Below the pieces are notes generated by a model, which worked only from the letters and a program-made list of their open reading frames with translations, did not search any database and was not told where the DNA came from. Made by a program: the position numbers and the translations under genes. Below, in pieces: positions 17,022-53,713 of a stretch of DNA of 64,000 nucleotides; the first letter of the stretch is position 1; each line of letters begins with the position of its first letter. Origin of the DNA: Tetradesmus obliquus (taxonomy: Eukaryota > Chlorophyta > Chlorophyceae > Sphaeropleales > Scenedesmaceae); assembly GCA_030272155.1 (NCBI GenBank), contig CP126207.1, positions 2,914,001 to 2,978,000 of the forward strand, read 5' to 3'.

Positions 17022-17716
17022 ATGGCGCCTCCGCCGCTGCTGGGGCTGGGCCTGGCGCTGGCTGCAGCAGCGGGCAACAACATTGGCAAGGGCCTGCAGA
17101 AGGCAGCCACGCGCCAGCTGCCGCAGCTTAACTTGGGGCGCAGCGAGGTGGGTAGTGGCTATTCGAAAGTATAACTATAGGTTTGCAGGACCTCGAATCA
17201 TGTTATGTACAAAAGAGGAATCGCCTACACCACTAGCAGCGCGGTGCGCTGCCAGGGGCCAGCTGCCGCAGCTCAACCTAGGGCGCAGTGAGGTGCGCAC
17301 TGGATGGTGCTGTTTAGTATTATGCAACCGCTTCAGTTACATGTTCCAGCTGTTGTCCATTGTGCACCAAGGCGCGCCCTGCATTGCAACAGTATGCCTG
17401 CAGTGTGCGCTGTGTGTCGCACTGAAAGCAAGCGGCAGCTCAACAGCTGCTCCTGTAAGCAGCGGCAGCACAGCAGCTGCGCTATTGCAAGCAGGCTGCA
17501 GCCCAGCAGCTGTGTGCCTGCAATCAGGCCACACTGCAGCAGCTGCTTGCCTGCAAGCAGGCTGCAGCCCAGGCACTGGTTTCCTGCAAGCAGCTTGCAG
17601 CTGTCCTGCAAGCAGGCGGCCGCCCAGCTGCTGGTTTCCTGCAAGCAAGCTGCGACGCAGCCAGCACTGTGCCCTTCCCAGCCAGCAGCTGTCCCCACTG
17701 CTCAACTGAGCTGCCC

Positions 17717-17765
<49 letters not shown>

Positions 17766-18295
17766 CCGCGTGCTGCTGCTGCTGCCCTCAGGTGGTGCGT
17801 GCCTACCTGGGCAGCCCCAGCTGGCTGCTGGGCCTGGCGCTTGATGTTGGTGGGGGAGGCGCCATGCTGGGTGAGTGGCTTTGCTTGTGTATATGCAAAT
17901 GCAGCAGCAGCAGCAGCAGCAGGTGTTGGTGGAATGGCTGGTGTTGGTGGAATGGCTGCTGGGGCTGACGCTGGACGTTGGTGGGGGAGGAGCCATGCTG
18001 GGTGAGTGGCTTTGCTTTACTACATGCAAATGCAGCAGCAGCAGCAGCGGCGGCGGCGGCGGCGGCAGCTTGTTTGGCTGGTGTTGGTGGAATGGCTGCT
18101 CATCAACTTTGGCTTTGCGCAACGAAAACAAAATCAGCAGCCTGATGCAGCAGCAATAGCAGCCTGTATGAATGTTCAGGCTGCTGCGCTGATCCTTGAT
18201 TGGTTTTATTGCGTACAGCAGCAGCAACAGCAGCAGCAGCAGCCCCACATGGATGCTGGGCCTAGCGCTGTGTTGGTGGTGGAGCCTACTTGACC

Positions 18296-18348
<53 letters not shown>

Positions 18349-18949
18349 AGGCGCGCTGGCTGCCGCCCCTGTGAGCCTGGTGCAGCCTGTGGCTGCCTTT
18401 GGGCTGGTGCTGCTGGCGGCATTCAGCCACTTTGTGCTGCAGGTGGGTCACTTCTGCAGTTGCAATTCAGTATTACAGGATTTCAGGATTTAAATCTTTG
18501 TCCCGGCTGCCTTTGGCCTGGTGCTGCTGGCAGCCTTCAGCCACTTTGTGCTGCAGGTGGGCCGCCCTGCTGCCCCTGCTGTTGATGGTGATGATGATGC
18601 CTAGCAGTAGTGGTGTCGACATGCAGTGCTAAAGGCAACTGCGCAATTGGAACTGTGTATGGTGGGGGATGCTGTTGAAGCCTACACAGCTGCAGCTGCC
18701 GCGCTGGCGGCGCTGTTGCTGCCCTGTTGCCTGAAACAGTTGCATCACATCTGATCTCTTTGATGTGCTTGCCGCTGCTGCTGCTGCGGCTGCCGTCGCC
18801 GCTGCCGCTGCTGCTGCTGCTGCAGGAGCGGCTGGGCCCCAGCCAGTGGAGGGGCGCAGCTGCCACCGTTTGCCGGCCTGCAACCTGCCTGCTGGGGGAC
18901 CCATTACTGTGCATGTGCTTCCCCTGCTAGGCTTACATTGTTGCCGCTG

Positions 18950-18992
<43 letters not shown>

Positions 18993-19396
18993 AGGAGCGG
19001 CTGGGCCCCAGCCAGTGGAGGGGCGCAGCTGCCACCGTTTGCCGGCCTGCAACCTGCCTGCTGTGAGACCCGTCACTGTGCATGTGCTTCCCCTGCTAGG
19101 CTTACATTGTTGCCGCTGCTCCTGCTGCTGCTGCTGCTGCTGCAGGAGCGCCTGGGCCCCAGCCAGTGGAGGGGCGCAGCGCTGGCCACTGCCGGCCTGC
19201 AGCCTGCCTGCTGGGGAACCCATCACTGTACATGTGCTGCCCCTGCTAGGTTTACATTGCTGCTGCTGCTGCCGCTGCTGCAGGAGCGGCTGGGCCCCAA
19301 CCAGTGGAGGGGCGCAGCTGCCACCGTTTGGCGGCCTGCAGCCTGCCTGCTGGGGGACCCATCACTGTGCATGTGCTTCCCCTGCTAGGCTTACAT

Positions 19397-19430
<34 letters not shown>

Positions 19431-21334
19431 ACAGGAGCGCTTGGGCCCCAGCCAGTGGAGGGGCGCAGCTGCCACCGTTTGCCGGCCGGCAACCTGCCTG
19501 CTGTGAGACCGATCACCTGTACATGTGCTTCCCCTGCTAGGCTTACATTGTTGCTGCTGCTGCTGCTGCAGGAGCGGCTGGGTCCCAGCCAGTGGAGGGG
19601 CGCAGCGCTGGCCACTGCCGGCATCGTCGGCATGGGCGTCAGCAGCAGCAGCAGCAGCAGCAGCGAGGCGCACACTGCTGCTGCTGCTGCAGAGCCCCCT
19701 ACAGCAGCAGCAGCAGCGGCAGCAGCAGGTGTGCCGTCTCCTGGCAGGGCCTTATGCTGCTTCCTGCTGCTGCTGGCGCTGCTGGCAGCTGAGGTGACCT
19801 GGCGGCAGCGGCGGGAGGCAGCAGCAGCGCGCCGGAGGAGAGGGGGCGGGGGTGCGGGCGTGGTGGGATCAGCGGAGCCTGCTGCCGCTGCTGACGCTGC
19901 TGCGTGCGGGCTGGAAGCTGGCTGCTGCTTTGGGTTTAGCGCGGCAGCTGCGCGCACAGGTGGGGCAATGCGCTGTCAGCAGGTCATGGGGGGGGGGGGG
20001 GACTAGGGTAGGCGTGGGGCAATGGCTAGGGTGGCAACCCTAAACCCTAGCAGTGCGCTACTGTAGGGAAGGGTGGTTGGCACATGCGGGCATATGCCTG
20101 GCGCGCATGCGTCCGCACAAACATGTGCGGGAGCGTAGGGCTTAAGGGGCATGTTTATCTCTTTGTGTGTGTGTGTGTGTGCGGGCTGGAGGCTGGCTGC
20201 TGCTGTGGGTTTAGCGCGGCAGCTGCGCGCACAGGTGGGGGTGGCTGGCTGCTGCTGTCGCACGCTGGTAGCAGATGAGGTCAGCACTCGAAGGAGTGAG
20301 GGTCCACCTGGGAAAGGAGTGAGGATCTGTTGGGGCAGCGGGTGTGGAGCTGTGGTGCGTCAGAGAGGGGCGGTTGGTGCATGCGTGCGCATCAAAACAT
20401 GCAGGAGGGCTGGAAGCTGGCTGCTGCTTCCGCTTCAGTGCGGGGGCTGTGCGCGCAGGTGGGGGCGCTGCGCTTCTGCGGTCCATAGGGCCCCAGTGCA
20501 GTGCTGCGCTCAACAATTCAGAGCTCAAGTGCTGCTGCTGCTGCTGCTGTTTGAATTTGCAGGCTTTGCGCTGTCAGCCACCCTAGGACGGCTGGCTGCT
20601 CCTGTGGGCGTGGCGTACAGCCTGGGCCTGAGCAGTGCGGGGTTTGTGTTTGACAAAGCCGTCGCTGCTGCTGCCGCTGCTGCTGCTGCTGCCGCAGGTT
20701 TTGCGCTGTCAGTGACCCTAGGCCGGCTGGCTGCTGCTTTGGGCGTGGCGTGCAGCCTGGGCCTGAGCAGTGCGGGCTTCCAATGACACAGCCGCTGCTG
20801 CTGCTGCTGCCGCCGATGCAGGTTTTGCGCTTTCCGTGACCCTAGGCCGGCTGGCTGCCCCACTTGGTGTGGCGTGCAGCCTGGGCCTGAGCAGTGCGGG
20901 GTTTGTGCTGCAGCGCTGCACCTCCATTTCTGACAGAAACCTGCTGCTGCTGCTGCTGCTGGGTTTGCAGGCTTTGCCCTGTCAGTGTCGCTGGGCCGGC
21001 TGTGTGCCCCGCTGGGCGTGGCTTGCAGCCTGGGCCTGAGCAGTGCGGGCGTGCCTCTCCTCCTGGCTTACAAGAATACTGCTGCTGCTGCCCCCGATGC
21101 AGGTTTTGCGCTGTCGGTGACCCTAGGCCGGCTGGCTGCTCCGGTGGGCGTGGCGTGCAGCCTGGGCCTGAGCAGTGCGGGGTTTGTGTTTGACAAAGCT
21201 GTTGCTGGTGCTGCTGCTGCTGCTGCCGCAGGCTTTGCTATTTCCATGTCACTAGGCCGACTGGCTGCTCCTTTGGGCGTGGCGTGCAGCCTGGGCCTGA
21301 GCAGTGCTGCGCTCAACAACTCAGAGCTCAAGTG

Positions 21335-21372
<38 letters not shown>

Positions 21373-22973
21373 GCAGGCTTTGCCCTGTCAGTGTCCCTAG
21401 GCCGGCTGGCTGCTCCACTTGGCGTGGCGTGCAGTCTGGGCCTGAGCAGCGCCGGGTTTGTGCTGCAGACGCGCGGCTTCAAGCATGGTAGTGCGCTGGT
21501 GGTGTGCACGACAGCAGCGGCAGCCAGTATCGTGGCAGGTGGGTTCCGTATAAAGATGGTGTCTGTCAGGCGTGGGGGCCACAGCAGCAGCAGCAGCATC
21601 GTGGCAGGTGCGTTTGATAATATTTTGTTATACTTGAATCCTTATTGCTGTGTGTCGCGCAGCAGCAGCAGCAGCAGCAGCTAGCAATGCGGCAGGTGGG
21701 GAGAGTGCAAGAAATGGGGTGATGGGTGCAGCAGTGCCTGCTTTGTGCTGCGGCTTCAAGCACGGCGGCGCGCTGGTGGTGTGCACCACTGCAGCAGCAG
21801 CCAGCATTGTGGCAGGTAGGCGGGTTTTAGCGCGTTTTGATGTTTTGGGCTGGCGGCTGCAGACGCGTGGCTTCAAGCACGGCAGCAAGCTAGTGGTGTG
21901 CACGACAGCAGCAGCAGCCAGCATCGTGGCAGGTGGGCGGGTTTCAGAGAGTTATTTTTAGTTTGGGCTGGCGGCTGCAGTTGTGTGGTTGGCTGGATTC
22001 AAGCACGGCAGCGCCCTGGTGGTGTGCACCACTACGGCAGCAGCCAGCATTGTGGCAGGTGGGCGGGTTTTAGGTGTTTGTATGTCTTAGGTTGGCGGCT
22101 GCAGCAGTGTGGTTGGCTGGAATCAAGCACGGCAGCGCGCTGGTGGTGTGCACCACTGCGGCAGCAGCCAGCATTGCGGCAGGTGGGCAGGTTTTAGGGT
22201 GTTTTTGAGTCTTGGCCTGGCGGCCTGAGCAGTGCGGGCTTTGTGCTGCAGACGTGCGGCTTCAAGCACGGCAGCGCGCTGGTGGTGTGCACAACAGCAG
22301 CGGCAGCCAGCATCGTGGCAGGTGGGTTGCGATTGACTAGGATATCTGTCAGCTGTGTGGGTGCCACAGCAGCAGCAGCCAGCATTGCGGCAGGTGGGCA
22401 CATTGCAGAAAATCGGCGTTGGCCGCAGCAGCGAGGGCGGGGGGTGCTTTGTGCTGCAGACGCGCGGCTTCAAGCATGGCAGCGCGCTAGTGGTGTGCAC
22501 GACAGCAGCAGCAGCCAGCATCGCGGCAGGTGGGCGGGCTTTAGGGTGTTTTGGAGTCTTGGCCTGGCGGCTGCAGCAGTGCGGGGTTTGTGCTGCAGAC
22601 GGCTTCAAGCACGGCAGCGCCCTGGTGCTGTGCACGACAGCAGCAGCAGCCAGCATCGCCGCAGGTGCGTTCTGTATAAACATGGTGTCTGTCAGGCGTG
22701 GTGGCCACAGCAGCAGCAGCAGCAGCAGCAGCAGCTGTGTGGCAGGTGGGCAGATTGCAGAAAATGGGTTGTTTGGTGCAGCAGCGGGGTGGCTTTTTAT
22801 GTTTGGGCTGGCGGCTGCAGCAGTGTGGTTGGCTGGATAAAGGCACGGCAGCGCGCTGGTGGTGTGCACCACTGCGGCAGCAGCCATCATCGTGGCAGGT
22901 GGGCAGGTTTTGAGTGCTTGTTGTAGGTGAATGCCTGCTGCTGTGCACTCAAGCTTCTAGTGCTGGCCGCTCA

Positions 22974-23005
<32 letters not shown>

Positions 23006-23332
23006 TGTGCTGGTGGGCCTGCTAGCACTGAGTGAGCCGCTGCCAGCCTCGCGCCACGCCAAGCTGCTGCTGCTGCTAACCGCCCACTGCTGCTGCTTCT
23101 GCTTCTGCTGCTGCTGCTGCTGCTGCCGGGTGTGCTGGTGGGTCTGCTGGCACTCTCAGAGCCGCTGCCAGCCTCGCGCCACGCCAAGCTGCTGCTGCTG
23201 CTGCTGCTGCTGCTGGCTGCTCACTGTTGCTGCTGCTGCTGCTGCTGCCAGGTGTGCTGGTTGGTTTACTAGCACTTTCAGAGCCGCTGCCTGCCTCGCG
23301 CCAAGCTGCTGCTGCTGCTGCTCACTTCCCAC

Positions 23333-23369
<37 letters not shown>

Positions 23370-23786
23370 TGTGCTGGTGGGCCTGCTGGCACTCTCAGAG
23401 CCGCTGCCAGCCTCGCGCCACGCCAAGCTGCTGCTGCTGGGCAGCTGGGCGGCTGTCTTCTGGGGTGTCAGCAGCATGGCGGGCAGCGAAGGTAACAGCG
23501 TCAGTAACGCTGTTATTTTGGCGTCACTGCACACAGACGGCAAGCACGGGTCAAATGGATCGAGCGGTGTGCTGGGTGGTGTCAGCAGCCGCGTGCAGGC
23601 CGTTTTGCGGGAGCTGCTGCTGCTGCTGCCGCGGGGTCTGCGGCGGCGGCTGCTGCCGCAGCAGCTGCGGCAGTGGCTGGGACGCGGCGGCAGCAGCAGC
23701 AGCAGCAGTGGCGCGGTAGGGGTGTGGTGGGCGTTGCTGGGAGGGGGCAGCAAGACTGGCGGCAGCAGCAGCATTGATGGGCAGGT

Positions 23787-23824
<38 letters not shown>

Positions 23825-23934
23825 GGCTTGTTGCTGCTGCCGCTGCTGCTGCTGCTGCCAGCCTGCCGCTGAGCAGCAGCGTGCCTGACTTTGCTGCTGT
23901 GCTGGCGCCAGTAGGGGGTGCCCGCAGGAGCTAG
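17022..23934 (+). CDS. NIPA/DUF803-like membrane protein, six exons
   Basis: Exons 17022..17147, 17792..17870, 18351..18442, 19572..19959, 21377..21538 and 23369..23934 join with compatible phases to 1413 bases, or 470 aa plus stop. Residues 1-42 hold the family start (GLGLALAAAAGNNIGKGLQKAA). Then comes YLGSPSWLLGLALDVGG, APVSLVQPVAAFGLVLLAAF, and the ERLGPSQWRGAALATAG signature. A poly-Ser/Ala loop and a membrane segment (ALCCFLLLLALLAAE) follow, then FGFSAAAARTGFAL, LGLSSAGFVLQTRGFKHGSA, and GVLVGLLALSEPLP leading to the last helix. This is the alternating helix pattern of NIPA-type proteins in the EamA/DMT superfamily, several of which move Mg2+. The substrate here is inferred only. The C-terminal tail (about residues 325-470) is Gly/Ser/Gln-rich and probably cytosolic. 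Introns end in CTG runs and are packed with partial copies of the adjoining exons, listed separately. Confidence 0.82.
17251..17292 (+). repeat. exon-edge echo, NIPA-like exon 1 (donor side)
   Basis: A near copy of the last roughly 40 bases of exon 1 (…CAGCTGCCGCAGCT…CGCAG[C/T]GAG), followed by GTGCGC in place of GTGGGT. It lacks the start codon and lies in intron 1. Confidence 0.85.
17948..18291 (+). repeat. exon-edge echoes, NIPA-like exon 2 (donor side)
   Basis: 17,948-18,001 repeats the end of exon 2 (LALDVGGGGAML-type coding) down to its GTGAGT donor. Weaker pieces lie at about 18,078-18,100 and 18,246-18,291. All lie downstream of the genuine exon, between GCAGCAG/CTG runs. Confidence 0.8.
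18505..18556 (+). repeat. exon-edge echo, NIPA-like exon 3 (donor side)
   Basis: Copies the end of exon 3 (coding for AFGLVLLAAFSHFVLQ) through CTGCAG and a GTGGGC donor, in intron 3. Confidence 0.9.
18826..19571 (+). repeat. five exon-edge echoes, NIPA-like exon 4 (acceptor side)
   Basis: Copies begin right after AG at 18,826, 18,995, 19,146, 19,284 and 19,435; the genuine exon begins at 19,572. Each repeats the ERLGPSQWRGA coding, then diverges into a shared non-coding tail ending in a CTG run just before the next copy. The period is 137-169 bp. One copy (19,146) extends to ALATAG; the others break after GAA. Confidence 0.93.
20181..20458 (+). repeat. two exon-edge echoes, NIPA-like exon 4 (donor side)
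   Basis: 20,181-20,234 and 20,406-20,458 repeat the last roughly 50 bases of exon 4 (GLEAGCCFGFSAAAART coding) and its GTGGGG donor. They lie downstream of the genuine exon end at 19,959. Confidence 0.9.
20563..21376 (+). repeat. six exon-edge echoes, NIPA-like exon 5 (acceptor side)
   Basis: Copies start after an AG at 20,563, 20,698, 20,822, 20,971, 21,103 and 21,232; the genuine exon starts at 21,377. Each repeats coding for FALSVTLGRLAAPLGVA and LGLSSAG, then stops before the RGFKHG part. Divergence between copies shows they are old enough not to be an assembly stutter. Confidence 0.93.
21539..22898 (+). repeat. about eleven exon-edge echoes, NIPA-like exon 5 (donor side)
   Basis: Copies of the exon 5 end (GFKHGSALVVCTTAAAASIVAG coding) finish at a GCAG|GT donor at about 21,607, 21,815, 21,932, 22,058, 22,182, 22,321, 22,393, 22,529, 22,664, 22,745 and 22,898. 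Lengths vary from about 25 to 80 bases. Between them are shared spacers such as the GGGCTGGCGGCTGCAG type. Confidence 0.9.
23005..23368 (+). repeat. three exon-edge echoes, NIPA-like exon 6 (acceptor side)
   Basis: Starts at 23,005, 23,130 (acceptor CGG instead of CAG) and 23,252 repeat VLVGLLALSEPLPAS and part of RHAKLLLL. They then run into CTG triplets. The full exon starts at 23,369. Confidence 0.92.
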
Positions 23935-31828: not shown

Positions 31829-34208
31829 CAATCTGGTGTGGTGTAGTAATGCACACCGGCAGTGACAGGAACGCGCCTGATTGCTTGCTGCTCGGGGCTG
31901 CACAGCAGTTCCCTTTCAGTCGCAGCAGCAGATGCATGTTGTGGATTTGAGAATGCGCGCAGCAGGAGACACATACCCCAGAAATATATACTGAAGCCAC
32001 ACACTCGTAAGGCCTGGCTGAACCAGGCTGCAGCTGGAATGTGATACAACAGCAAGCATGGCCGCTTCAGCAATCGTGGCGGGCAAAAGACATGCAAAGA
32101 ACGGAGGGACACGCACATCAACAGCAGCACAAGTGTACGGCTGCTGCATGTCGCAGCACCCTAGATAACAGCAGCATGAGGACAGTCTCTACCCTGCAGG
32201 GTTCTGGCACTACTGCCACCTGCCTCAGTAGCTGCTGCTGCTGCTGCTGCCTCAGACGTACAAAACATGTGTGCGCATGTGCATATCAGTTGGCAGGGGA
32301 AGAAAAAAAGCTCCCCCATTCTGTCGTCAACCGCTGCTGCTGCTGCTGTTATCAGCTGGGCAAGCTCAGGCCAGGATCCACACAAAAGGGCAAAGGGGGA
32401 AAACACACGCCTCGCAGCTGCCAAAGGCATGAGGCTGCTGCTGCTGCTGCTGCTGCTGCCATCAGCTGGGCAAGCTCAGGGAAGGTCCAGCCAGGGAGAA
32501 AACAAAAACACGCCTCGCAGATGCCACGAGACAAGGCAGCCACCAACCCAAGTGCCGCAATGTGTGCACGCATGGCAAAGCAACACACACAGGCACATGG
32601 CGGCAGCGCCTGTGGCCGCATCATGCCTGTGTGGGGTTTAGGGTTTAGGGTGACGTGCTCGGCAGCAGGGCCCAGGCAAATCGAGCTGGGCCTGCAACCG
32701 TCGCTCAAGCGCACACGCAGTGCACAGTTCCTGTCATGTTCCGTGCATACCACAGCAAGCACAGCCTGCGCCGCATGGCATGTTCATGTGCATGCATGCT
32801 GAGCGCAAGGTGCAAGCCCATGCAGCCCAGCACAGCACAGCAAAAACACAAGAGAGCACAGCAAGCACTCGAGTCTGTGGGTTTCAGGAGACAGCAGCAG
32901 CGCCGCCGCAACTCAACAGCAGCAGGCGCCGCCGCTGCCAATACAAGCCGCCCCGTCAGGTGTAGCATACGCGATGTGGTAGCCCCATGCGCGCAGCAGA
33001 CGGCGATGGTATCTGCACATTCGTGCACGTGCGTGCATGCTGTATACCGCTATGCTGCTGCTGCACTTGATGGGTGATGTGATGCGGCGTCCATGTGCAC
33101 TCTACAGCTAGACCACCCACATGTGCAGTGCAGCAGCAGACAACAAAGTGTAGTAGCAGACAACAAACTGCCCACGAAGGCTACGCAAAGGCCCCGCTAC
33201 ACAACCCCCTGGCGGTTCATAATACTAACATGTGTTATAACAAGTGACAGTTGTGTTATAACACACGCTTTCCCTCGTCCTCCCGCAAGCATACACATCA
33301 TGCACTGCTGGCGTGCCAGATTGCTGATCTGATTCATAAACCCTAACTCCTCCATGCAGTGTGCAGCAGCCACTGCCTGACATCCGCACCATTGCAACTG
33401 CTGTGATCCAGCCAAGCTCTGCATGACAACATAACACAACAAAGTAACAAGTGACAACTGACAGAGTCGACGGCCAGGTGAATCGAGCGCTGCAGCAGGC
33501 CTGCAGCTTCCCGCCGCTCGCATTTCAAAATCCAAATCTACATTTTGACTTTTGAATTCTCAACATCGTTGTCATCATTGCCGCCGTCATCATGATCATG
33601 ACATGTCACCTATCATAACACCACCATCGCAGCATACCGTGCAGTGCTGTGTATGCCTCATGCCAGCTGCCGCAGCCATCACTGCTTCAATCAATCGGCT
33701 GCAGCTGCCCCCATGAGCACCACACTAAAGGCACTAGCAGCACGTTCTGACCATCTCCAAAGCGTATCAAAAGCACGTTCATGCTCGCTGTACTCAGTCG
33801 CTGCTGCAGCAGCATGCGTGGCCGCTGCTGCAGCCAGCCACCATATCACACACAGCTGCACAGCAACTGCTGCAAGCATTGAAACCTAGGCCCGTGCATC
33901 TGCCCGCTGTGAGCAGCAGTGCAAGCTCTGCAAGCCACCGAGGCGAAAAGCACAGCCAGCTGCTGCTGCTGCTGCGGGTGCTGCATGCCAGTCAGGCGAA
34001 CACCTGGCATGATCCATAGCACCCACCACCACCACCACCGCCAGCAGCAGCAGCAGCAGCAGTTCAGGCAGACAACACCAACAGAAGAATAACTGCAACC
34101 AACACAACATCAGCAGCAGCAGCAGCAGGCTGCGCCCCTGCTAAAGAGGCTGCTGCTGCTGCTGCTGGGCTGGCTGCGTGTTGTGAGGCCTCTTTGACAC
34201 CCCCCAAA

Positions 34209-34539
34209 ACCCTGAGGAGGCCGGGGTGGCACTCCTCGCATCCCAGCAGCACGCTAGGGTTTAAAGGCCATGCCATGGCCCATAAACCCTAAGCCTACTG
34301 CTGCCCAGCCCAGCTGTAGAAGGGCCCACTGCCTGAGGAGGCCAGGGAGGCACTCCTCGCATCCCAGCAGCGCTCTAGGGTTTAGAAGTAGCCACGGCCC
34401 CAAAGCCCTAAACCCTACTGCTGCCCAGCCCAGCTGTAGAGGGGCCCACTGCCTGAAGAGGCCAGGGAGGCAACATGTAGAGCCGCGCAGCGCTTTTAGG
34501 GTTCGGCATAGGGTAGGGTTTTAGGTGTCTCGTAAAAAC
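34209..34539 (-). repeat. echoes of the GYF-gene C-terminus downstream of its stop
   Basis: On the minus strand, 34,415-34,473 and 34,295-34,366 repeat the coding for the last roughly 20 residues (…GPFYSWAGQQ type) with the TAG stop. 34,209-34,246 repeats an inner piece without the stop. They are separated by TTTAGGG-like motifs and lie beyond the genuine stop at 34,540-34,542. Confidence 0.88.
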
Positions 34540-34622
34540 CTACTGCTGCCCAGCCCAGCTGTAGAAGGGCCCACTGCCTGAGGAGGCCAGGGAGGCACTC
34601 CTGGCCTGGTCCATCATCATCA

Positions 34623-34660
<38 letters not shown>

Positions 34661-34961: not shown

Positions 34962-34992
<31 letters not shown>

Positions 34993-35782: not shown

Positions 35783-35813
<31 letters not shown>

Positions 35814-36195
35814 GCAGCAGCAATAGTGTAAGGCAGGCGTTCGACAGCCCTGGCTTGAGCAGCAGCAGTGGGCAGTGATGCCCGGCAATGCTGCAAGCAC
35901 AACACTTGATCAACGGTTTCCATGATGACGATGATGATGACAATGAATAATTACATGCAAACTGCAATCCCACTGTCAACAACAAGGGTGGCAGCTGTCA
36001 CAACAGCCACTGCCACCCCGCAACCCTACAGCAGCTGCACCTAAACCCTGATGCAATTTGTTCGAAACCCTGAACCCTCAGCCCTGCACCCACCGCTGCG
36101 CCCGCGAATGCGCCCCTGCTGACCACGTCCTGCCACTTGACCGTGTTGTAGACCCAGCCGTTGGCAACGTTGTCAAGCAGCGCACCCAGCGGCCT

Positions 36196-36237
<42 letters not shown>

Positions 36238-36292
36238 CATTCAGTGAGCACAGCCGTTGGCAATGTTGTCCAGCAGCGCACCCAGAGGCCTG

Positions 36293-36323
<31 letters not shown>

Positions 36324-36408
36324 GGGGTGGTGTTGTCAGACACAGGGTAAGCAAGCAGGCCCAGTTGTTGGCCACATTGTCTAGCAGCGCACCCAGCGGC
36401 CTGCAGCA

Positions 36409-36441
<33 letters not shown>

Positions 36442-36495
36442 CGTTCAGTGAGCACAGCCGTTGGCAATGTTGTCCAGCAGCGCACCAAGAGGCCT

Positions 36496-36552
<57 letters not shown>

Positions 36553-39500
36553 CCAGCAGCAGCGGGGTGAGTTGCCAGATGCAGGGGCAGGCATGCAGCA
36601 CAGCAACACCACAGAGCTGCAGGCATGTGCAGCAGGGCCAGCTGCTGTTGACAGAGAGTTTGCATATAGCATGTAAGCATGAAAGTATCCTGAGCACACT
36701 GCGTGGCTGATACCCAGCAACGCACATCACAGGGGAGGCCTCCAACCCCACAGATCCCCCGCCCACACTAAACCCCAAACCCAGCAAGGCCGCTAAGCCC
36801 TAAGCCTTTATAACCATCACCTTAACCCCAGTTACCTGAACCACTGCGCCACGTCTCCGCTGATCATGCAGGCCGGCAGCTGTGGGTCGTACGCCACCAC
36901 CAGCGTGTTGCTGCCACCAGCAGACCCTAATCTGCCGCTACACCTAAAACCCTAAACCACAGCCAGATACCACCCTGAACCCTGCCTACCTGAACCACTG
37001 CAGCACGTCGCCGCTGATCATGCAGGCCGGCAGTTCGGGGTCGTAGGCAACAACCAGCGTGTTGCGTGGCAGCCGCCCGCACAGGTGCGCGTGCATCACC
37101 TTGCCACCACTGAAGGGGCCCCTGCAAAAATAAACAGGAAGAAGTGCAAACAGAACGTGTTATCAGTCAGTACGCGCGCATGACCTTGCCGCTGCTAAGC
37201 CAAAAGAAGCAGAACATAACAAGCTAGTGTTTGTCACGGCAGCAGCAGCAGCAACGGTGGCAGCCGCCCGCACAGGTGTGCGTGCATCACCTTGCCGCCG
37301 CTGAAGGGGCCCCTGCAAAGCAGCAACAAAACACAATAATAGATACAAAGGTCAGTAAGACACACGAAGGTTCTGAGTTGGTTCATTCTGTCAGGGGTGG
37401 CAGCCGGTGCGCGTGCATCACCTTGCCGCCGCTGAAGGGGCCCCTGCGGCAGCAAAAAAAGAACAACAAACAAAAGAGTAAGGCTTTAAGGTGGTGCATC
37501 CAGTCGACACTGCACAGGAGGATCCATCAAGCCACAGCCAAAGCAGCACTGCCGCTGCCGCCATTGCCCACCTGCACCAGCCCAGGTGGTTGATGTACAG
37601 CCACAGCGGCTGCTTGGCCCGAATGCCCACGCTGAACATTAAGCCACATTAAACCCTCAACAACAAGCTTGCTAAACCCTGCCAGCCCACCTGCACCAGC
37701 CCAGGTGGTTGATGTACAGCCACAGCGGCTGCTTCGCCCCTATGACCACGCGCCCACCGGCACTGCTAAACCCTCGGCAACAGGACTGCTAAACCCTCGG
37801 CAACAAATCTGCTCAACCCTTGACAACAAGCCTGCTAAACCCTGCCAGCGCACCTGCACCAGCCCAGGTGGTTGATGTACAGCCACAGCGGCTGCTTGGC
37901 CCCTATAGCCACGCGCCCACTGGCACTGCCCACTCCACACAGCCGCTGCAGCGCAGCACGCAGCCGCGCCGCTGCTGCTGCTGCCACCACCCGGCCCTCC
38001 GCAGCACTGCTGCTGCTGCTGCCGCCGCCGCACGCGTCCGCGCCGGCGGCCTCGGGGTCTAAACCCAGCTTGCAGAGGTCGCCCGCTAAACCCTCGGCGG
38101 CGGCTGCGTCAGAGCCTAAACCCTGGCTGGGGGTGAGTGGGTTCCAGTGGGCGGGGCTTGCGCCTGCTGCTGCCAGTGACTGCATGGCTTCCTCTGTCAA
38201 AGGGCAGAAGCGCTGGCCTGCGTGCACTGAGCCGATCAGCTGCCCCAGGGGGCGGTAGAAGGCCAGCTCCTGCAGGGTTTAAGGAGGCAGCAGCAGGAGC
38301 AGGGTTTAGCAATGGCATCGGTGCATGGTGTCCTCAGCGCGGGGGCCATAGCGCGGCCGGCTTGCACTGAGCTGATCAGGGCAGGGTTGTGTCAAAGACC
38401 AGCACCATCTGCCTGTCTGTAACAAGAACATGCTCTCACTGCTTCGTTCGTGTTTAAACAGCATTCATGTTTGAAAGAACTTTGGGGTTTTAGTCGCACC
38501 TGGCGCGCCACGTATGGCAGGTTTTTGTCGATGCCCAGCACCATCTGTGCCGCGCTGAGCGTGCCGCGCCGGCAGAACTCCAGCATCTTGTCAGCAGTGT
38601 AGCTGCCCTTGATCTTGCCCTGCGGCGTGAAAAGAAGTAACATGTTATTATCATGTTAATGTGACCGACAGACAGGAAGGCAGCATGTTGGTTGGGCAGT
38701 CATTCAAGCTCTCAGGCAGGCAGGCAGGCAGGCAGGCAGGCTGGCACAACTGCAGCACCTTCTCCGCGGAGTTGCTGCGCTTGATCTTGCTCCAAAGCAC
38801 CTAAAACCCTGCCTCGGCCCTACAGCAAGTGAAAACCCTCAGCGCTGAACCCTCACCTGCAGGTTGACCACCATCCACACCGGCTGCTCAAAGTCAACCT
38901 CAGCCGCTGCCCTGAACAACCATCCCAGCTACAACCAACCGCCCTGACCAAAGCACCTGAAACCTAAAACCCTCATCCCTACAGCAAGCCAAAACCCTAG
39001 CCACACATACCATAACATATTCACCTGCAGGTTGACCACCATCCACACTGGCTGCTCGAAGTCTGCCTCAGCTTCCGCCCTGAACAGCCGCCCCAGGCTG
39101 CCCACGCTCACACCCAACTCACGAGCCAGCAGCGGCACCTCACTGCTGCTGCTGCTGCTGCTGCCAGCCTCCGCTGCTGCTGCTGCTGCCAGCTTGCCGG
39201 CGCCCTGCTTGGCTGCTGCTGCTGCTGCTGGTGAGGTGGGGGTAGGGGAGGCCAGGCCTGGCCTGCTGCTGCTGGGGCTGGCCAAACTGCTTGAGACGCC
39301 AGGCGAGCCGCCACACACGCTGCTGCGGCGGCGCTGCTGCTGCTGCTGCTGCTCGGATGCAGCTGACGCCGCGTCGGTGTAGGGTTCGAGGTTTAGGCTC
39401 TCCAGGTTGCTAAACCCCGGGGAGGCCATGCCTGGCAGGCGGGGGTTAGGGTCGCAGAGGGCGTGGGGGCCCACAGTGAAGTGGGGCGCGAGTGCTGCTG

Positions 39501-46610: not shown

Positions 46611-46612
<2 letters not shown>

Positions 46613-47487
46613 CCTGCACCCGCCCAAGCCTGAGCCTGCCAGCCTGCCAGCCTGGCTGGGTGGCAGCAGCTGCGGCTGGCCCCAGTGCACTGGGGCCGCC
46701 CCAGGTGGTCGGCCAGGCATGGACTGCCGGCTGCCAGCGCAGCAGCAGCAGCAGCAGCACGGCGCAGCCAGTAGGCACACCCGGCTGGCGTTGGGTCTGG
46801 CGCGCAGTGCGGAGCGCAGTGTCAGCTGCTGCCAATCTGCAGAGCCTGCCAGCACTTCCTGCCAGGCTGAAGTGATGGCAAGGCACTTGCCATCAAGTTG
46901 CAACTTGATGCAATTGCAATTGCTTGAAGCGAGGCACCATCTTTTCCCTGTTAGCTGTTGGCAGAAACCGGCAGTGATGCCAACTACAATACAACAGAGA
47001 TGTGCAGTGCCAGTTTCACCAGCACAATCTGCCAAGCCTGCCAGCACTTCCTGCCAGGCTGGCCAGCCCTGGAGCGATATGCCCCGACTGTATTTTTCTG
47101 TCAGATGTTGGCACTCGGCCAAGCCAGCGGCAAATTTTAAGCTACGAATTAAATTGGGAGCTGTGCAGGGCTATTGTTATCAGCAGCACTGCAGAAGCTT
47201 GCCACACTTGCCCCATCATGGCATGTTCTTTGGGCTGGGTTTTAAGCCAGCTGCAGTGGGACCCTAGCAGCACATTGCCGCTTAGGAATCCGAGGCAGGC
47301 GACTGCAGCACATTGCGTGTGTTGACGTGAACTATCAACGACCTGCGTGTGATCAAAGGCTGCCCCGCAGAGTTGCCCAACCACCTGACCATGGTACTGC
47401 TCTGCTCCTGCCTTCTGCTTGCCGGCTATTCGAACGTGTCAATGAGTCGATAATCGCTGATATGCGTTTGAAAACTACGTGTTGCAG

Positions 47488-48104
47488 GGGAACCCCTATC
47501 TGCTGGTGTACAACGCGGCCCTGACCGCAGGCTGGTGAGCGAGCCGCAGCGATCACCACTGCGGAAGCCGCTTGATTCGTTTCTTTGGTTTGCTGTTATG
47601 CTTAGAAGTGTGTGCACGCAGCTGCTGGTGACGCAGGCGCAGCAGGCACAGTAGGCCTGGCTCAACCGTCACTAGCAGGCCAAGCAGCAGCTTGCCGCAA
47701 AGCATGTCTGTGCCAGCTGTTGATTTTATCTCACTCAGTATTAATGTCCAGGTAACTTTAGTGTAGCTGTCGGCAGATGGTCATCAGCCATGCCACAACC
47801 AGACAGCAGCAGCATGCACAGCAGCAGTGGGACACGTTGCGCTGCTGATGATGCAGCGATCGCAGCGTGGCGACAGCCGCTTGCATGATCAACGTCCCTG
47901 GTCAGTAACCTCCACTATAGAGGCATCTGTTTACTGTTTTCAGCACAGCCATCAGAGTGTTGTACCATGCGGCATGCCGCCCTAACTGCAATAGCATGTT
48001 GCCTTGCACTCGACAGCATGCAGCTCTCCTGGCACCCTCTCCCTCTCTTCCTCCCTCTCTCTCTTATTGTCTCTCTCTCTGCTTTTTCTTTCTCCGTCCA
48101 TCAA

Positions 48105-48138
<34 letters not shown>

Positions 48139-49201
48139 CCCTGCCCTGCTGCCTTGCAGGGGCTATGTGCTGTTCTCCCTCTTAGCCCTCTCTGCCTCTC
48201 TCTGCGCCACTTCCATCAGCCGCTGCTGCTGCTGCGCCTGCTGCTGCGCCTGCTGCTGCTGCTGCCCGCAGGGGCTATGTGCTGTTCCTGACTTACAAGA
48301 CGGTGCTGTCATTTCTGTGTTACTCATCAGCTGCTGCTGTGCTGCTGCACCTGCTGCTGCTGCTGCTGCCGTGCAGGGGCTATGTGCTGTTCCTGACCTA
48401 CAAGACGGTGCTGCAGGAGGGCGGCTGGACGCAGGAGGTGTTCGAGGTGGGGCTCTGAAAATGATGATTTTTTGCTTGTCTGGCTTGTCTGGAAGCAAGA
48501 TTTCTTGGGATAGGGGCGTGGGTTCAGGGCACCCAGGCAGTGCTGCTGCAGCATGGCTGGAGCACAGCTGGACGCAGCAGGTGTTGGTTGTGAGGCTTGC
48601 CTGGCAGCAAGGGCTTTTTGGTTTTGGGAGCCAGTAGTTCAGGGCACCCAGGCAGTGCTGCAGCAGCATGGCTGGGGCACAGCTGGACGCAGCAGGTGTT
48701 CTATGCGAGGCCTGCAGCAGGGGCAGCAAGGGCCTTCGTTTGTGGTTGAGGGTTTCCGGACTGTGGTGCGGCAGCATGGCTGGAGCGCGGCTGTACGCAG
48801 CAGGTGCTCAGTGTGAGGCCAGGGAAGCAGCAGCAAAGGCATGAGCTTGCAACAGCTCAGCAGCAGCAGCAGCAGCAGCAGCGTGAGTACTAATCCTGCT
48901 GCCGCTGCTGCTGCTGCCACGTTACAGGCTGTGGATATTCCCCTCAAGATCAGCCAGAGCGCTGCGCTGCTGGAGGTGGTGCTGCTGCTCACGATGCTGC
49001 TGCTGCTGCTGCCTTCACTGCTGCTGCTGCTGCTGCTGCCGCTGCTGCCATGCAACAGGCTGTGGACATTCCCCTCAAGATCAGCCAGAGCGCTGCGCTG
49101 CTGGAGGTGGTGCTGCTGCTCACGATGCTGCTGCTGCTGCTGCCTTCACTGCTGCTGCTGCTGCTGCTGCCTTCACTGCTGCTGCTGCTGCTGCTGCCTT
49201 C

Positions 49202-49235
<34 letters not shown>

Positions 49236-50257
49236 TGGCACAGGCTGTGGACATTCCGCTGAAGATCAGCCAAAGTGCTGCACTGCTGGAGGTGGTGCTG
49301 CTACTCATATTGCTGCTGCTGCCGGTGCTGCTGCCGGTGCTGCTGCCGGTGCTGCTGCTGCTGCTGCTGCTGCTGCCGCCGCCATGTCACAGGCTGTGGA
49401 CATTCCCCTCAAGATCAGCCAGAGCGCCGCGCTGCTGGAGGTGGTGCTGCTACTCACGATGCTGCTGCTGCCTTTTCTGCCTTTTCTGCTGCTGCTGCTG
49501 CTGCCGCTGCTGCCATGCAACAGGCTGTGGACATTCCCCTCAAGATCAGCCAGAGCGCCGCTCTACAGATAGCGCTGCTGCCTTCACTGCTGCTGCTGCT
49601 GCCGCTGCTGCTGCTGCCACGTCACAGGCTGTGGACATTCCCCTCAAGATCAGCCAGAGCGCCGCGCTACTGGAGGTGGTGCTGCTACTCATATTGCTGC
49701 TGCTGCTGCTGCCGGTGCTGCTGCTGCCATGCCACAGGCTTTGGACATTCCCCTCAAGATCAGCCAGAGTGCCGCGCTGCTGGAGGTGGTGCTGCTACTC
49801 ACGATGCTGCTGCTGCCTTCACTGCCGCCGCTGCTGCTGCTGCCGCCATGCAAACAGGCTGTGGACATTCCCCTCAAGATCAGCCAGAGCGCCGCGCTAC
49901 TGTAGACAGTGCTGCTACTCACGATGCTGCTGCTGCTGCCGCTGCTGCTGCTGCCATGCAACAGGCTGTGGACATCCCGCTGAAGATCAGCCAGAGCGCT
50001 GCGCTGCTGGAGGTGGTGCACTCCGCAATTGGGCTGGTCAAGTCGCCCGTGGCCATCACAGGTGCGGGGGGTGGTTTTGAACGGGTGTTGAGCAGGTGTT
50101 GAACGGGTGTTGAGCAGGTGTTGGCGGTGGCGGCGCTGGTGCAGGTTGTGGTGGGCCATGGACTGTAGGGCAACTGGTGCACGTGGCTGGGCAAGTCGCC
50201 TGGGGCCATCACAAGGTGCGGCGTGGGCGGTGCTGACGTGCGGTTGGGGGAGGCTGG

Positions 50258-50290
<33 letters not shown>

Positions 50291-52261
50291 GGCATGCACC
50301 GTCTCCGTAGCGTAGCTGCTGCTGGGCTGGTGCAGTCGCCCGTGACGGTCACAGGTGTGGGGTGGTGGATCAGGCGGTCAACGGGCATTGGAATGCTTGT
50401 TGAATGGGTGTTGGCCAACTTGGCTCTGCTTGCCACCTTTGGCTCTGCTTTTTGCTCACCCATGTGTATTGCGCTGCGCTGCATTGCTGCTGCTTGGTGC
50501 TTGGTGCTGTGTCTGGCTCTGCAGCCATGCAGGTGGCTAGTCGGATTTGGTGCCTGTGGGGCATTGTGGTACCATGCGCAGCCACAGTCATCCCGCAAGG
50601 CCTGCTCACTGCGGGGCAGCAGGCGGCCCTGGGCCTGCCTGGCCGGGCCAAAACCCCAGAAAAAACACGATCTAAAGCCCTAGAAAAACATGTTCTGAAT
50701 CCTGAAACCTGAGTTTTGTGCTGTTTCCGTGCATTCCCTGACCGCAGCCATGCAGGTGGCCAGCCGCATTTGGTGCCTGTGGGGCATCGTGGTGCCTTGT
50801 GCGGCAACCGTTATCCCCCAGGGCCAGAAAACCCAAAACATGTCCCCAAACCCTATACAAAAATGCCATAAATCCCTGAGTTGTGTTCGCTGTGTGTGCT
50901 GTTTCTGGCCTGCAGCCATGCAGGTGGCCAGCCGCATTTGGTGCCTGTGGGGCATCGTGGTGCCCTGCGCCGCCACAGTCATCCCTCAAGGCCTGCTCAC
51001 TGCGGGGCAGCAGGCGGCCCTGGGCCTGCCTGGCTGGGCCAACATCAACTTCATCACACTCATGACGGCCTGGGCCTGCAGCGAGGTCATCCGTTATGGT
51101 TTTTTTGCGCTCAAGGAGGCTTTTGGCACACCCCCTTACTTCGCCACGTGGCTCAGGTGCGACGTGATGCTGCGCTTTGTCAACCCTGTAGGGCTGAACA
51201 GCTGGCCCTGGGCCGTTTGAGGGTTTCATTCTGGGGTTTGGGGTTTTGGGTGGTGATTGCTTGGGCCTGCAGCGAGGTGATCCGCTATGGCTTCTTCGGA
51301 GGCGTTTGGAACAACCGCTTACTTCGCCACCTGGCTCAGGTGGGTGACTGCTGTTCAGGGCTTTGTGTGTTCAGGGTTTCATTTTTCAGGGTTGACGGGA
51401 ATTGAGGCTTGATTGCCTGGCTGGGCCAACATCAACTTCATCATGCTCATGACGGCCTGGGCCTGCAGCGAGGTTATCCGCTATGGGTTTTTTGCGCTCA
51501 AAGAGGCCTTTGGAACACCCCCTTACTTCGCAACCATGCTCAGGTAGGAGGATGTGTGCAGGGGTTTGGGTCTGGGGCTGATTGGTTTGAAGCTCCCCAC
51601 TAGAAACATGTGCGCGGCTCTTCAGCGAGGTTCGCTACAGCTTCTTTGCGCTCAAGGAGGCGTTCGGAACACCCCCTTACTTCGCCACATGGCTCAGGTG
51701 CGCAGCTATACACTGGTGTGCATGAAATCGTGTAGAACCTGATAGCTGGGCCCGAGCGAATCAGGGGTTTTGGTTTGGGGTTTAGTGTCTTGGGTGGTTA
51801 CGGCCTAAGCCTGCAGTGAGGTCATCCGTCATGGATTTTTCACGCTCAAGGAGGCCTTTGGAACGCCGCCCTACTTCGCCACATGGCTCAGGTGGGTGAT
51901 TGCGGCTCAGGGGTTTGGGTGTTCGGGTTTTTAGGGTTGAGGGGATTTGAGGCTTGGTTGCCGTCCTGGGCCAACATCAACTTCATTACATGGATGACAG
52001 CGTGGGCCTGCAGCGAGGTCATCCGATAGTTGTTTTGCGCTCAAGGAGGCGTTCCGGACCCCACCCTACTTTGCCGCCTGGCTCAGGCGTGATGCTGATA
52101 CCTGTTATGAATGAACGCCTGCAGTTTTTTATAGCTAACCCTGAGCCATATAGGGTTTCTTTGGTCAGCAGCAACATACGCACTGTTGCTGCTGCTTCTG
52201 CAGGTACACCGCGTTCATGGTGCTGTACCCCCTTGGTGTGAGCAGCGAGCTGACCAGTACC

Positions 52262-52311
<50 letters not shown>

Positions 52312-53119
52312 CGCATATTCTCCTTTATCTCAGGTACACCGCGTTCATGGTGCTGTACCCTCTTGGCGTGAGCAGCGAGCTGACCACTACCCCTGCTGCT
52401 GCTGCTGCTGCTGGTGTCGCATATTCTCCTTCGCTGCAGGTTCACTGCGTTCATGATGCTGTACCCTATTGGCGTGAGCAGCAAACTAACCACTGCTGCT
52501 GCTATGTACGGTTTGTTTTTGATCTCAGGTACACTGCGTTCATGGTGCTGTACCCTCTTGGTGTGAGCAGTGAGCTGACCATGGCGTGGCGAGCCCTGCC
52601 CGACATCAAGGCGCGGGGGCTGTTTAGCTCCACACTGCCCAACAGCTGGAACTGGGGCTTCGACTACCACCTGGTGTGCGTGCTGGTCATGGCCACATAC
52701 ATCCCAGGTGGGGTGCAGCTGTTTAGGGTTCAGGTCTTTCAATACACATACATCCGCTGCACAACCCTATACCCTGGGGCTTTGACTACTACACGGTGTG
52801 CCTGCTGGTCATGGCCACATACATCCAGGTGCGCAAACATACGTTCTTTGTTGCTCAAGTGGAGGGCGGGGCCGAAGTCCTTATGATTTGATGATGGTTT
52901 GATGATAGTCCCAGGTGTGTTGTTGCTGCTGCTGCGGCTGTGTTGAATTGGCGTGAGGCTTCTTCAGCACCTCTCATTTGTGCTGTCCAGAACTGGGGCT
53001 TCGACTACATGGTGTGCCTGCTGGTCATGGCCACATACATCCCAGGTGGGGTGCAGCTGTTTAGGGTTCATTGCTGTCACAAGTTTGCCGCAGCTGTACA
53101 ATTGCCGCATGCTGACACC

Positions 53120-53152
<33 letters not shown>

Positions 53153-53243
53153 AGGCCTGCCGCAGCTGTACGGCTACATGCTGACTCAGCGCAAGAAGGT
53201 GCTGGGGGGCGGCGCCGCCAAGCCCAAGGCAAAGGCAGCTTAA
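47488..53243 (+). CDS. PAS2: PASTICCINO2/PHS1-type 3-hydroxyacyl-CoA dehydratase (first exon not resolved)
   Basis: Exons 47488..47534, 48377..48446, 49965..50061, 50916..51156, 52529..52707 and 53155..53243 join in phase to 240 codons plus stop, close to the family's usual length. The order of signatures is that of PTPLA/HACD proteins: YLLVYNAALTAGWGYVLF, PLKISQSAALLEVVHSAIG, VASRIWCLWGI, WACSEVIRYGFFALKE, and TWLRYTAFMVLYPLGVSSEL. Then come the PNSWNWGFDYH helix and IPGLPQLYGYMLTQRKKVL, with a Lys/Ala tail that could act in ER retrieval. The Tyr and Glu seven residues apart in YPLGVSSE match the catalytic pair known in yeast Phs1. The enzyme dehydrates 3-hydroxyacyl-CoA in very-long-chain fatty acid elongation in the ER membrane. 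The start codon is unresolved; an ATG at 47,391 directly followed by GT would fit a first exon ending in the initiator codon. Confidence 0.88.
48160..48376 (+). repeat. two exon-edge echoes, PAS2 exon 2 (acceptor side)
   Basis: Copies start after GCAG at 48,160 and 48,272 and code GYVLF and GYVLFLTYKTVL before breaking off. The full exon starts at 48,377. Confidence 0.93.
48535..48811 (+). repeat. three degenerate echoes of the PAS2 exon 2 end
   Basis: At about 48,535-48,583, 48,652-48,699 and 48,768-48,811 the stretch GTGCTGCAG … GGCTGGA … ACGCAGCAGGTGTT recurs in diverged form after the genuine exon end at 48,446. Confidence 0.75.
48928..49964 (+). repeat. eight exon-edge echoes, PAS2 exon 3 (acceptor side)
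   Basis: Starts after ACAG at 48,928, 49,059, 49,244, 49,393, 49,524, 49,628, 49,738 and 49,858; the genuine exon starts at 49,965. Almost all code AVDIPLKISQSAALLEVV (one reads ALDIP and two are cut short after SAAL), then run into CTG/CTC triplets. None reaches the HSAIGLVKSP part. The period is 104-185 bp. Confidence 0.95.
50176..50354 (+). repeat. two exon-edge echoes, PAS2 exon 3 (donor side)
   Basis: Copies of the GGGCTGGTCAAGTCGCC…CCATCACAG end finish at 50,215 and 50,354, followed by GTGCGG and GTGTGG. They lie after the genuine donor at 50,061. Confidence 0.88.
50525..50915 (+). repeat. two exon-edge echoes, PAS2 exon 4 (acceptor side)
   Basis: Starts at 50,525 and 50,748 repeat MQVASRIWCLWGIVVPC and more (the first as far as AALGLPG), then diverge. 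The full exon starts at 50,916. Confidence 0.93.
51245..52086 (+). repeat. five exon-edge echoes, PAS2 exon 4 (donor side)
   Basis: Copies ending in CTCAG before a donor at about 51,339, 51,543, 51,697, 51,891 and 52,086 repeat the WACSEVIRYGFFALKEAFGT and PYFATWL coding with small indels. One has an in-frame stop and one a GC instead of a GT donor. The genuine exon ends at 51,156. Confidence 0.92.
52204..52528 (+). repeat. three exon-edge echoes, PAS2 exon 5 (acceptor side)
   Basis: Starts at 52,204, 52,334 and 52,440 code YTAFMVLYPLGVSSELT (the third YT as FT, with MLYPIG). They then enter CTG runs or diverge. The full exon starts at 52,529. Even the catalytic Tyr/Glu pair is repeated in these non-exonic copies. 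Confidence 0.95.
52761..53045 (+). repeat. two exon-edge echoes, PAS2 exon 5 (donor side)
   Basis: 52,761-52,828 and 52,990-53,045 repeat WGFDY…VCLLVMATYI and end at a CAG|GT donor, downstream of the genuine end at 52,707. Confidence 0.93.
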
Positions 53244-53288
53244 GGCAGCAGCAGCAGCAGCAGCAGCTGCGCGTCATGGCTATGGCTG

Positions 53289-53713
53289 GGCGGCAGCGCT
53301 GGCAAGCCCAAGGCAAAGGCGGCTTGAGGCAAGGCAGCGCAAGGCAGCAGAGGGGCCTGCGTGGCATGGGGGTTGGCTGGGTAGGAGGCAGCTTGCTGAC
53401 TCAGCGCGGGATGTAATTTGACAGTTTTAAGGATGGTGCTTGGCGGCGGCGCTCTAAGCCCAAGGCAAAGGCAGCCTGAATCAGCAGCAGCAGCAACTGC
53501 GCGTCATGGCTGTGGCTCGGCGGGAAGCTGCCAAGCCCAAGGCAAAGGCGGCTTGAGGCAGGGCAGCGCAGGGCAGCAGAGGGGGCAGCAGCAGCAGCAG
53601 CAGCAGCAGCAGCTGCGTGACTTGGGGTTGGCTGGGTAGGAGGCAGCTTGCTGGCGCAGCGCTGGCTATTGCTGGGCGGCGGTGGCGCCAAGCTCAAGGC
53701 GAAGGCAGCTTGA
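53289..53713 (+). repeat. four echoes of the PAS2 C-terminal codons after the stop
   Basis: Pieces ending in a TGA at 53,326, 53,479, 53,556 and 53,713 repeat the GGGAAKPKAKAA coding. Two also keep the LTQR-like or LAQR-like piece before it. The genuine stop is TAA at 53,241-53,243. Confidence 0.88.

Follow-up and report, generated by a model that had tools for sequence, protein, structure and literature searches.

Why should the introns of a gene hold repeated, truncated copies of the exon edges that border them? This question is raised by a 64,000-nucleotide stretch of the alga Tetradesmus obliquus (GenBank assembly GCA_030272155.1, contig CP126207.1, positions 2,914,001 to 2,978,000 of the forward strand), which we refer to as the window and which corresponds to C17:2914001-2978000 in a genome assembly of 17 contigs and 104.66 Mb. 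Three adjacent genes in the window, encoding NIPA-like, GYF-like, and PAS2-like proteins, carry such copies, here called echoes. A first-pass annotation made from the letters alone had estimated about 60 of them; we found 74, of which 69 are anchored at the edge of an exon, and their variation is codon periodic. The explanation we favor, at a probability of roughly 60%, is recurrent tandem duplication of exon-edge segments, followed by exchange among exon, echoes, and alleles.

Truncated copies of exon edges in three adjacent genes

We compared each exon, with 40 bp of flank on either side, to its own gene region extended by 1.5 kb per side, using the Basic Local Alignment Search Tool (BLAST), and obtained 97 rows. 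After 15 CTG/CAG-tract matches of NIPA exon 6 and 8 matches inside exons (low-complexity Q/A/S sequence) had been set aside, 74 copies remained. An upstream copy was called anchored when it began at exon base 1, and a downstream copy when it reached to within 3 nucleotides (nt) of the last exon base. By this rule, 69 copies were anchored: 33 upstream, at acceptors, and 36 downstream, including 6 at stop codons. This total is a lower bound, as a clear copy of the head of GYF exon 5 at 36400 was missed by BLAST. The five unanchored copies lie upstream of GYF exon 2 at 38790 (starting from base 2) and of GYF exon 3 at 38379, and downstream of GYF exon 2 at 38411, NIPA exon 2 at 18239, and GYF exon 6 at 34239. 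As controls, reversed sequence gave 0 rows and the opposite strand gave 15, which are probably CTG/CAG matches.

The copies have a strict polarity, just as the first-pass annotation had described, with acceptors kept only upstream of an exon and donors kept only downstream. None of the 74 ran the wrong way; there was no upstream copy with a donor end and no downstream copy with an acceptor end. All 74 provide the fair test of polarity because anchoring itself selected the 69. Complete exon copies with both ends were likewise absent (0 of 69). By alignment, the AG is preserved in 32 of the 33 upstream echoes and the GT in 27 of the 30 downstream splice echoes, the other three having GC (one) or a GT one base off (two). 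Echo-exon identity has a median of 89%, and the exon part has a median length of 55 nt upstream and 59.5 nt downstream. Alignments extend at least 6 nt past the acceptor into the intron in 30 of the 33 upstream copies. Echo alignments cover 46% of the intronic sequence in the NIPA-like gene, 41% in the PAS2-like gene, and 24% in the GYF-like gene, and the 92 local duplicate pairs found in the three genes comprise 59 exon-echo, 29 echo-echo, 3 with neither, and 1 exon-exon. Breakpoints are shared within some arrays (NIPA exon 4 bases 1-35 in four of five copies, PAS2 exon 4 bases 1-55 in six of eight, NIPA exon 6 bases 1-71 in all three), a pattern expected of tandem amplification. Lesions are present as well, namely, 11 frameshifting indels and, in some echoes, stops, for example at 51966.

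Two earlier expectations have to be narrowed. Echoes had been placed at almost every splice site, and we find them at 21 of 32 splice edges. They had also been attributed to a process specific to splice sites, but the last codons and the stop are echoed past the stop of the PAS2-like and GYF-like genes (two of the three stop codons), and splice sites are therefore not required.

Gene models were built on GT-AG borders and one open frame. The NIPA-like gene (17022 to 23934, plus strand) has six exons (17022-17147, 17792-17870, 18351-18442, 19572-19959, 21377-21538, and 23369-23934) with one open frame of 470 amino acids (aa); it scores above the cut-off for the Pfam family Mg_trans_NIPA (PF05653) and matches T. 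obliquus protein OEZ85_013727 (P0113). The GYF-like gene (34540 to 39175, minus strand) also has six exons (39175-39025, with an arbitrary 5' end, 38619-38500, 38269-37854, 37121-36990, 36193-36094, and 35766-34540), and its model is 98% identical to OEZ85_013728 (P0119), annotated as "GYF domain-containing protein" of T. obliquus. A 310-aa part of this protein matched no Pfam family at 1e-3. Seven exons make up the PAS2/HACD-like gene (PTPLA; 47363 to 53243, plus strand), at 47363-47393, 47488-47534, 48377-48446, 49965-50061, 50916-51156, 52529-52707, and 53155-53243, and the corresponding protein P0001 matches PF04387 at 7e-55. The first exons of the PAS2-like and GYF-like models are partial. 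The OEZ85 proteins come from another assembly, with a contig of 3,049,343 bp where C17 here has 3,054,181 bp, and we infer that this contig represents another haplotype or strain. By its title, the report on strain UTEX 3031 (Biondi et al. 2024, as cited in PMC12636532) presents a gapless, phased diploid genome whose haplotypes are divergent.

In the NIPA-like gene, the echoes spanning 17248-18561 are donor echoes of exon 1 (17248-17303), exon 2 (17953-18041), and exon 3 (18505-18561). Exon 4 has five acceptor echoes (18807-19469) and two donor echoes (20176-20474), exon 5 has six acceptor echoes (20530-21307) and ten donor echoes (21581-22903), and exon 6 has three acceptor echoes (22974-23320). 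The GYF-like gene, on the minus strand, carries one donor echo of exon 1 (38853-38928), two donor echoes of exon 3 (37566-37766), two acceptor echoes (37257-37447) and one donor echo (36820-36911) of exon 4, two acceptor echoes of exon 5 plus the third, unreported one at 36400 (36251-36533), and two stop-codon echoes of exon 6 in the 3' flank (34291-34472). For the PAS2-like gene, these are two acceptor echoes (48118-48308) and two weak donor echoes (48556-48809) of exon 3; eight acceptor echoes with CTG tracts between them (48896-49905) and two donor echoes (50185-50368) of exon 4; two acceptor echoes (50504-50825) and five donor echoes (51259-52097) of exon 5; three acceptor echoes (52201-52492) and two donor echoes (52774-53070) of exon 6; and four stop-codon echoes of exon 7 in the 3' flank (53285-53773).

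CTG tracts adjoin 16 of the 33 acceptor echoes (intronic background, 13 to 23%) but 2 of the 36 downstream echoes. CTG-mediated breakage as the cause of the breakpoints is thus suggestive for upstream echoes only, and we did not adopt it. Between 17022 and 54000, several 3' splice sites themselves close a CTG tract, with (CTG)nCAG running up to the exon, and triplet tracts therefore seem to replace the pyrimidine tract. Telomere-like motifs (AAACCCT/TTTAGGG-like) were also seen near echoes in introns and 3' flanks, at 34200-34560, 37640-37850, and 50640-52140. They may be a trace of break repair; the truncation points of downstream echoes had no excess of them (6 of 36).

Codon-periodic variation, products, and allelic matches

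Differences between echoes and exons were predominantly synonymous, at 311 synonymous to 110 nonsynonymous with shared changes counted per echo, where random change would give 27 to 31% synonymous. When sites in arrays of at least two echoes were counted once, those shared by a subset of copies stood at 65 synonymous to 7 nonsynonymous, singletons at 61 to 66, and those at which the exon departs from every echo at 16 to 6. Echo-to-echo divergence at codon positions 1, 2, and 3 was 6.2, 4.1, and 21.5%. Variable columns numbered 59 of 497, 35 of 495, and 150 of 499 at the three positions, and the columns with shared variation numbered 3, 1, and 35. The flanks of the four arrays tested had no 3-periodicity. 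Acceptor echoes were the most periodic (16, 7, and 62 variable columns of 193, 193, and 195), and stop-codon echoes had a weaker periodicity (7, 5, and 11 of 43 each, a small sample).

We compared these values to a simulation of neutral budding, in which copies arise from a constrained exon and echo number, length, and variability are matched to those observed. The ratio of variation at position 3 to that at positions 1 and 2 was 1.0 to 1.73 over 60 simulated runs, with a maximum of 2.12 over five settings, against an observed 3.17 (bootstrap, 2.4 to 4.26). The codon-periodic variation thus lies beyond the simulated neutral-copy range, and simple duplication followed by neutral decay does not explain it. 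An earlier simulation was run on a generic array of six echoes under three schemes (neutral budding, copying between echoes, and patchy conversion of echoes by the exon), and its variability stayed above that observed. Serial outward budding with a clock was also rejected, because identity does not drop with distance: across the eight arrays of at least three echoes, rho ranged from -0.2 to 1.0, with three arrays nominally positive (upstream echoes of NIPA exon 4, PAS2 exon 4, and PAS2 exon 6, the last with n = 3).

The acceptor echoes of PAS2 exon 5 have 13 synonymous variable sites and 1 nonsynonymous one. Of the 13, 10 occur in one echo only, and at the other 3 both echoes depart from the exon but with different bases, a mosaic-like arrangement. 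Judging from the coding signature as a whole, much of the divergence seems to date from a time when these sequences served as functional exons.

For two of the genes, the proteins available for comparison contain no echo-derived repeat. Splicing the PAS2-like gene from last acceptor to first donor throughout gives a product that agrees with P0001 (255 aa, from a 963-bp contig) at every residue over 240 aa; as the gene spans 5.9 kb, this contig most likely derives from spliced RNA. The independent GYF annotation, P0119, shares all five joins of our model and omits part of the last exon. A comparison at the protein level is blind to which synonymous edge copy was spliced in. The NIPA annotation, P0113 (OEZ85_013727), holds two exon-5 echoes as coding sequence and omits part of exons 4 and 6. 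Their inclusion is most likely an error of the gene finder, which the echoes seem to mislead, and spurious internal repeats may therefore occur in gene models of this species. Among the 112 PAS2 matches listed there was no T. obliquus-named protein, though a relative's was present, and the gene may be mis-annotated in T. obliquus owing to its echoes.

Allelic variation provides a further view of the echoes. Between P0119 and this haplotype there are five residue differences in the conserved part and one more upstream, leaving out one difference in a Q/M-rich stretch and repeat lengths. A local copy holds the P0119 residue at four of these five GYF sites, that is, at most sites that could be diagnosed, and at both of the two that fall in anchored echoes. 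These two are donor echoes. The exon 4 echo at 36911 reads DVAQWF, as in the other haplotype, where the local exon reads DVLQWF, and the nearer exon 3 echo at 37766 reads SAGGR, as in the other haplotype's exon, where the local exon reads SASGR. The remaining matches to P0119 are a Y in the weak, unanchored copy at 38379 and an A in the copy at 36400.

Other sequences point to echoes outside this assembly. In P0113, the "LCAPLG...AYKNT" copy is followed by an exon-5 copy that is not the same as its counterpart here. In a relative, P0070 (a metagenome open reading frame, 93% identical over the matched third) continues past the exon-5 donor into a second exon-5 tail with its own residues, ALGQPP, and P0081 (83%) probably has a second exon-5 tail in another frame. 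We saw no echo by eye in open reading frames of distant relatives that apparently read through introns (P0082, P0085, P0097, P0109, and P0110 for PAS2; P0123 for GYF). On this thin protein-level evidence, the trait may be one of the near relatives of T. obliquus. A blastp repeat screen of 118 proteins flagged P0113 only and missed the P0070 repeat, and thus was not used as a count. No PAS2 relative was found in viral contigs.

Proposed tandem duplication and exchange, and rival explanations

We propose that, in some genes, short segments straddling a coding-exon edge, whether at an acceptor, a donor, or the stop codon, would be duplicated in tandem, and repeatedly so. Each duplication would leave one whole exon and move a truncated copy into the intron or the 3' flank, which would account for the polarity and for the single complete exon in each set. 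The first-pass annotation had reasoned in the same way, and its reasoning is borne out in that the copies are direct and local and that whole exons are absent from the 69. If splicing joins the last acceptor with the first donor, the message would be unchanged and the copy tolerated, and exon definition would then be the cause of that tolerance. Copies that would add a second whole exon to the message are not seen. The arrays would not merely decay; exon and echoes may exchange sequence with each other and with diverged alleles, through gene conversion or unequal exchange, and the echoes would in this way come to include synonymous as well as allelic variants of the exon edge. The allele matches, together with the coding signature, favor exchange with, or origin from, diverged alleles, with conversion load and ancestral retention as possible alternatives.

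Several observations weigh against this proposal. Simple outward budding predicts that identity falls with distance, and three arrays have the opposite trend. The sequence class at the breakpoints is not uniform, as seen in the contrast in CTG tracts between upstream and downstream echoes. The weak periodicity of the stop-codon echoes may mean that splice-edge echoes are constrained for another reason. Two of the four allele matches sit in weak or unreported copies, and at the fifth GYF site (A/T), the weak copy at 38790 has A and agrees with this haplotype. The allele matches could also be ancestral retention; this applies to the first GYF site (DVAQWF/DVLQWF), as P0120 and P0122 carry A there and P0121 carries T.

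It is also possible that the echoes are products of neutral minisatellite growth, with duplications arising everywhere, purifying selection clearing the coding ones, and edge-spanning copies surviving as decaying junk. Geometry alone would then yield the polarity, stop-codon edges would be echoed too, as they are, and CTG tracts and other tandem repeats are indeed plentiful; singleton changes are near neutral (61 synonymous to 66 nonsynonymous), and some echoes have frameshifts and stops. We consider this rather unlikely, because the shared variation is codon periodic and mostly synonymous (65 to 7), beyond the simulated range, because few duplicate pairs (3 of 92) involve neither an exon nor an echo, and because, away from the three genes and from a cluster of BTB-like genes described below, local duplicates cover 0 to 25% per 2 kb of the window, in parts that may themselves include genes. 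Alternatively, the echoes themselves may be under selection, either through use of in-register AG/GT sites that rebuild the same protein or through conversion load, in which echo mutations are copied into the exon. Such selection is an unlikely but serious candidate. It would fit the strongest periodicity being in acceptor echoes and the weakest at stop codons, where use in the message is unlikely, although the stop-edge sample is small. By eye, in-register AG/GT sites occur at exons 4 and 5 of PAS2 and at exon 4 of GYF but are absent from the NIPA arrays, which are periodic nonetheless, and their reuse as a general cause was therefore set aside. P0113 has two exon-5 echoes as protein, yet this may be gene-finder error, and the protein-level evidence for PAS2 and GYF is compatible with such use, yet the transcript-like PAS2 contig is without the repeat.

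Two further explanations carry little weight. That the echoes are remnants of whole-exon duplications with one half lost is very improbable: tandem exon duplication is common, but there were no complete exons among the 69, and random loss of halves would leave both polarities on both sides, which none of the 74 copies displays. An assembly artefact is hardly credible even for arrays as repetitive as these, since the copies differ in sequence, since echoes occur in a second assembly (P0113) and a second exon-5 tail occurs in a relative's P0070 and probably in P0081, and since the published strain assembly is, by its cited title, telomere-to-telomere and gapless.

Duplication followed by exchange among exon, echoes, and alleles would have consequences for the evolution of introns. 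We suggest tentatively, at somewhat less than even odds, that these introns are a living archive of exon edges, outside the message and still exchanging with exon and alleles, in which intronic DNA evolves like coding sequence and can return variants. If exon-echo exchange is true, allelic variants of exons would be stored in introns, and conservation with a codon period would no longer prove translation.

Occurrence elsewhere and comparison with known systems

The first-pass annotation had argued from the three neighbors for a general process; echoes are not universal. Six minus-strand genes at 1-16500, which we take to be BTB-like, have six introns in the window, and a search with their exon peptides found no clear echo in them. 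There was one strong match to the exon-2 head per gene and none other better than E 0.05; one exon 2 has an 8-residue match upstream of it (E 0.48). The genes of this cluster have matches to both exon 1 and exon 2. A 70-bp piece of exon 2 stands alone at 6101-6170, and two copies of a mid-exon segment lie within degenerate sequence at 11677-11918. On C8, the 3-kb locus L008, a multi-exon transporter-like gene by eye, had no local duplicate. Among 11 chaperonin loci, 4 (on C4, C12, C15, and C16) had partial profile matches overlapping by at least 20 positions; these profile matches alone are only a hint of echoes on other chromosomes. Elsewhere in the window, separate frames at 56867-60804 on the minus strand encode polyprotein fragments, presumably Ty3/gypsy-like, and a long inverted repeat at 56032-56496 is 94% identical to its own reverse complement over 467 bp.

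The arrays would provide a natural stress test of splice-site choice, with as many as ten similar acceptors or donors in competition per exon edge. The mean intron length is 462 bp in this species, compared to 230 to 302 bp in the four other algae compared in Table 1 of PMC5966456, and echoes could account for part of these long introns.

How do echoes compare with known forms of exon and intron duplication? Mutually exclusive tandem exon duplication was rejected, as complete copies with both splice sites are absent (0 of 69), as were retrocopies or processed pseudogenes, as intron sequence is included in 30 of the 33 upstream copies. Introners are one dispersed family that creates new introns. 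Echoes resemble them in being a systematic copying of DNA tied to introns and splice sites, but each echo copies its own neighboring exon. A 261-bp PAS2 exon-4 query, the one query used, matched sequence away from its own locus only through its CTG-rich part (query 75-151; 40 of 115 candidates scored), and introner elements were rejected accordingly. In intron gain by AGGT tandem duplication, a new intron arises between the copies. Here, too, exon sequence beside splice signals is tandemly duplicated, whereas echoes fill an existing intron with copies of its own edges; in-register AG/GT, judged by eye, is present at some edges only.

The claim that such copies had never been described holds in part. 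No systematic description of exon-edge copies turned up in our literature searches, but single-locus precedents exist in the human CBS gene. The 844ins68 variant, as described in PMC2630376, is a junction-spanning duplication in which the distal site is strongly preferred, the upstream copy is removed, and a normal message results. Judging from their proteins, the PAS2-like and GYF-like genes probably share this distal-site preference. The same source describes a 31-bp variable number of tandem repeats (VNTR), c.1444_1467+7, with 24 exonic and 7 intronic nt in 16 to 21 polymorphic copies, and its tandem unit, by coordinates, straddles a donor site, as the echoes do. Direct local copies containing a splice site and adjoining exon, of the CBS type, number 33 upstream and 30 downstream among our splice echoes. 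The VNTR unit is short, uniform, and limited to one gene, whereas the algal units are longer, divergent, truncated, and codon periodic. The 844ins68 variant is a single copy, present in a population, at one exon edge of a single gene; the alga has echoes at 21 of 32 splice edges in three genes, with as many as ten to an edge, and at stop codons as well. What is new here relative to CBS is thus the scale, the copies of stop codons, and the coding signature.

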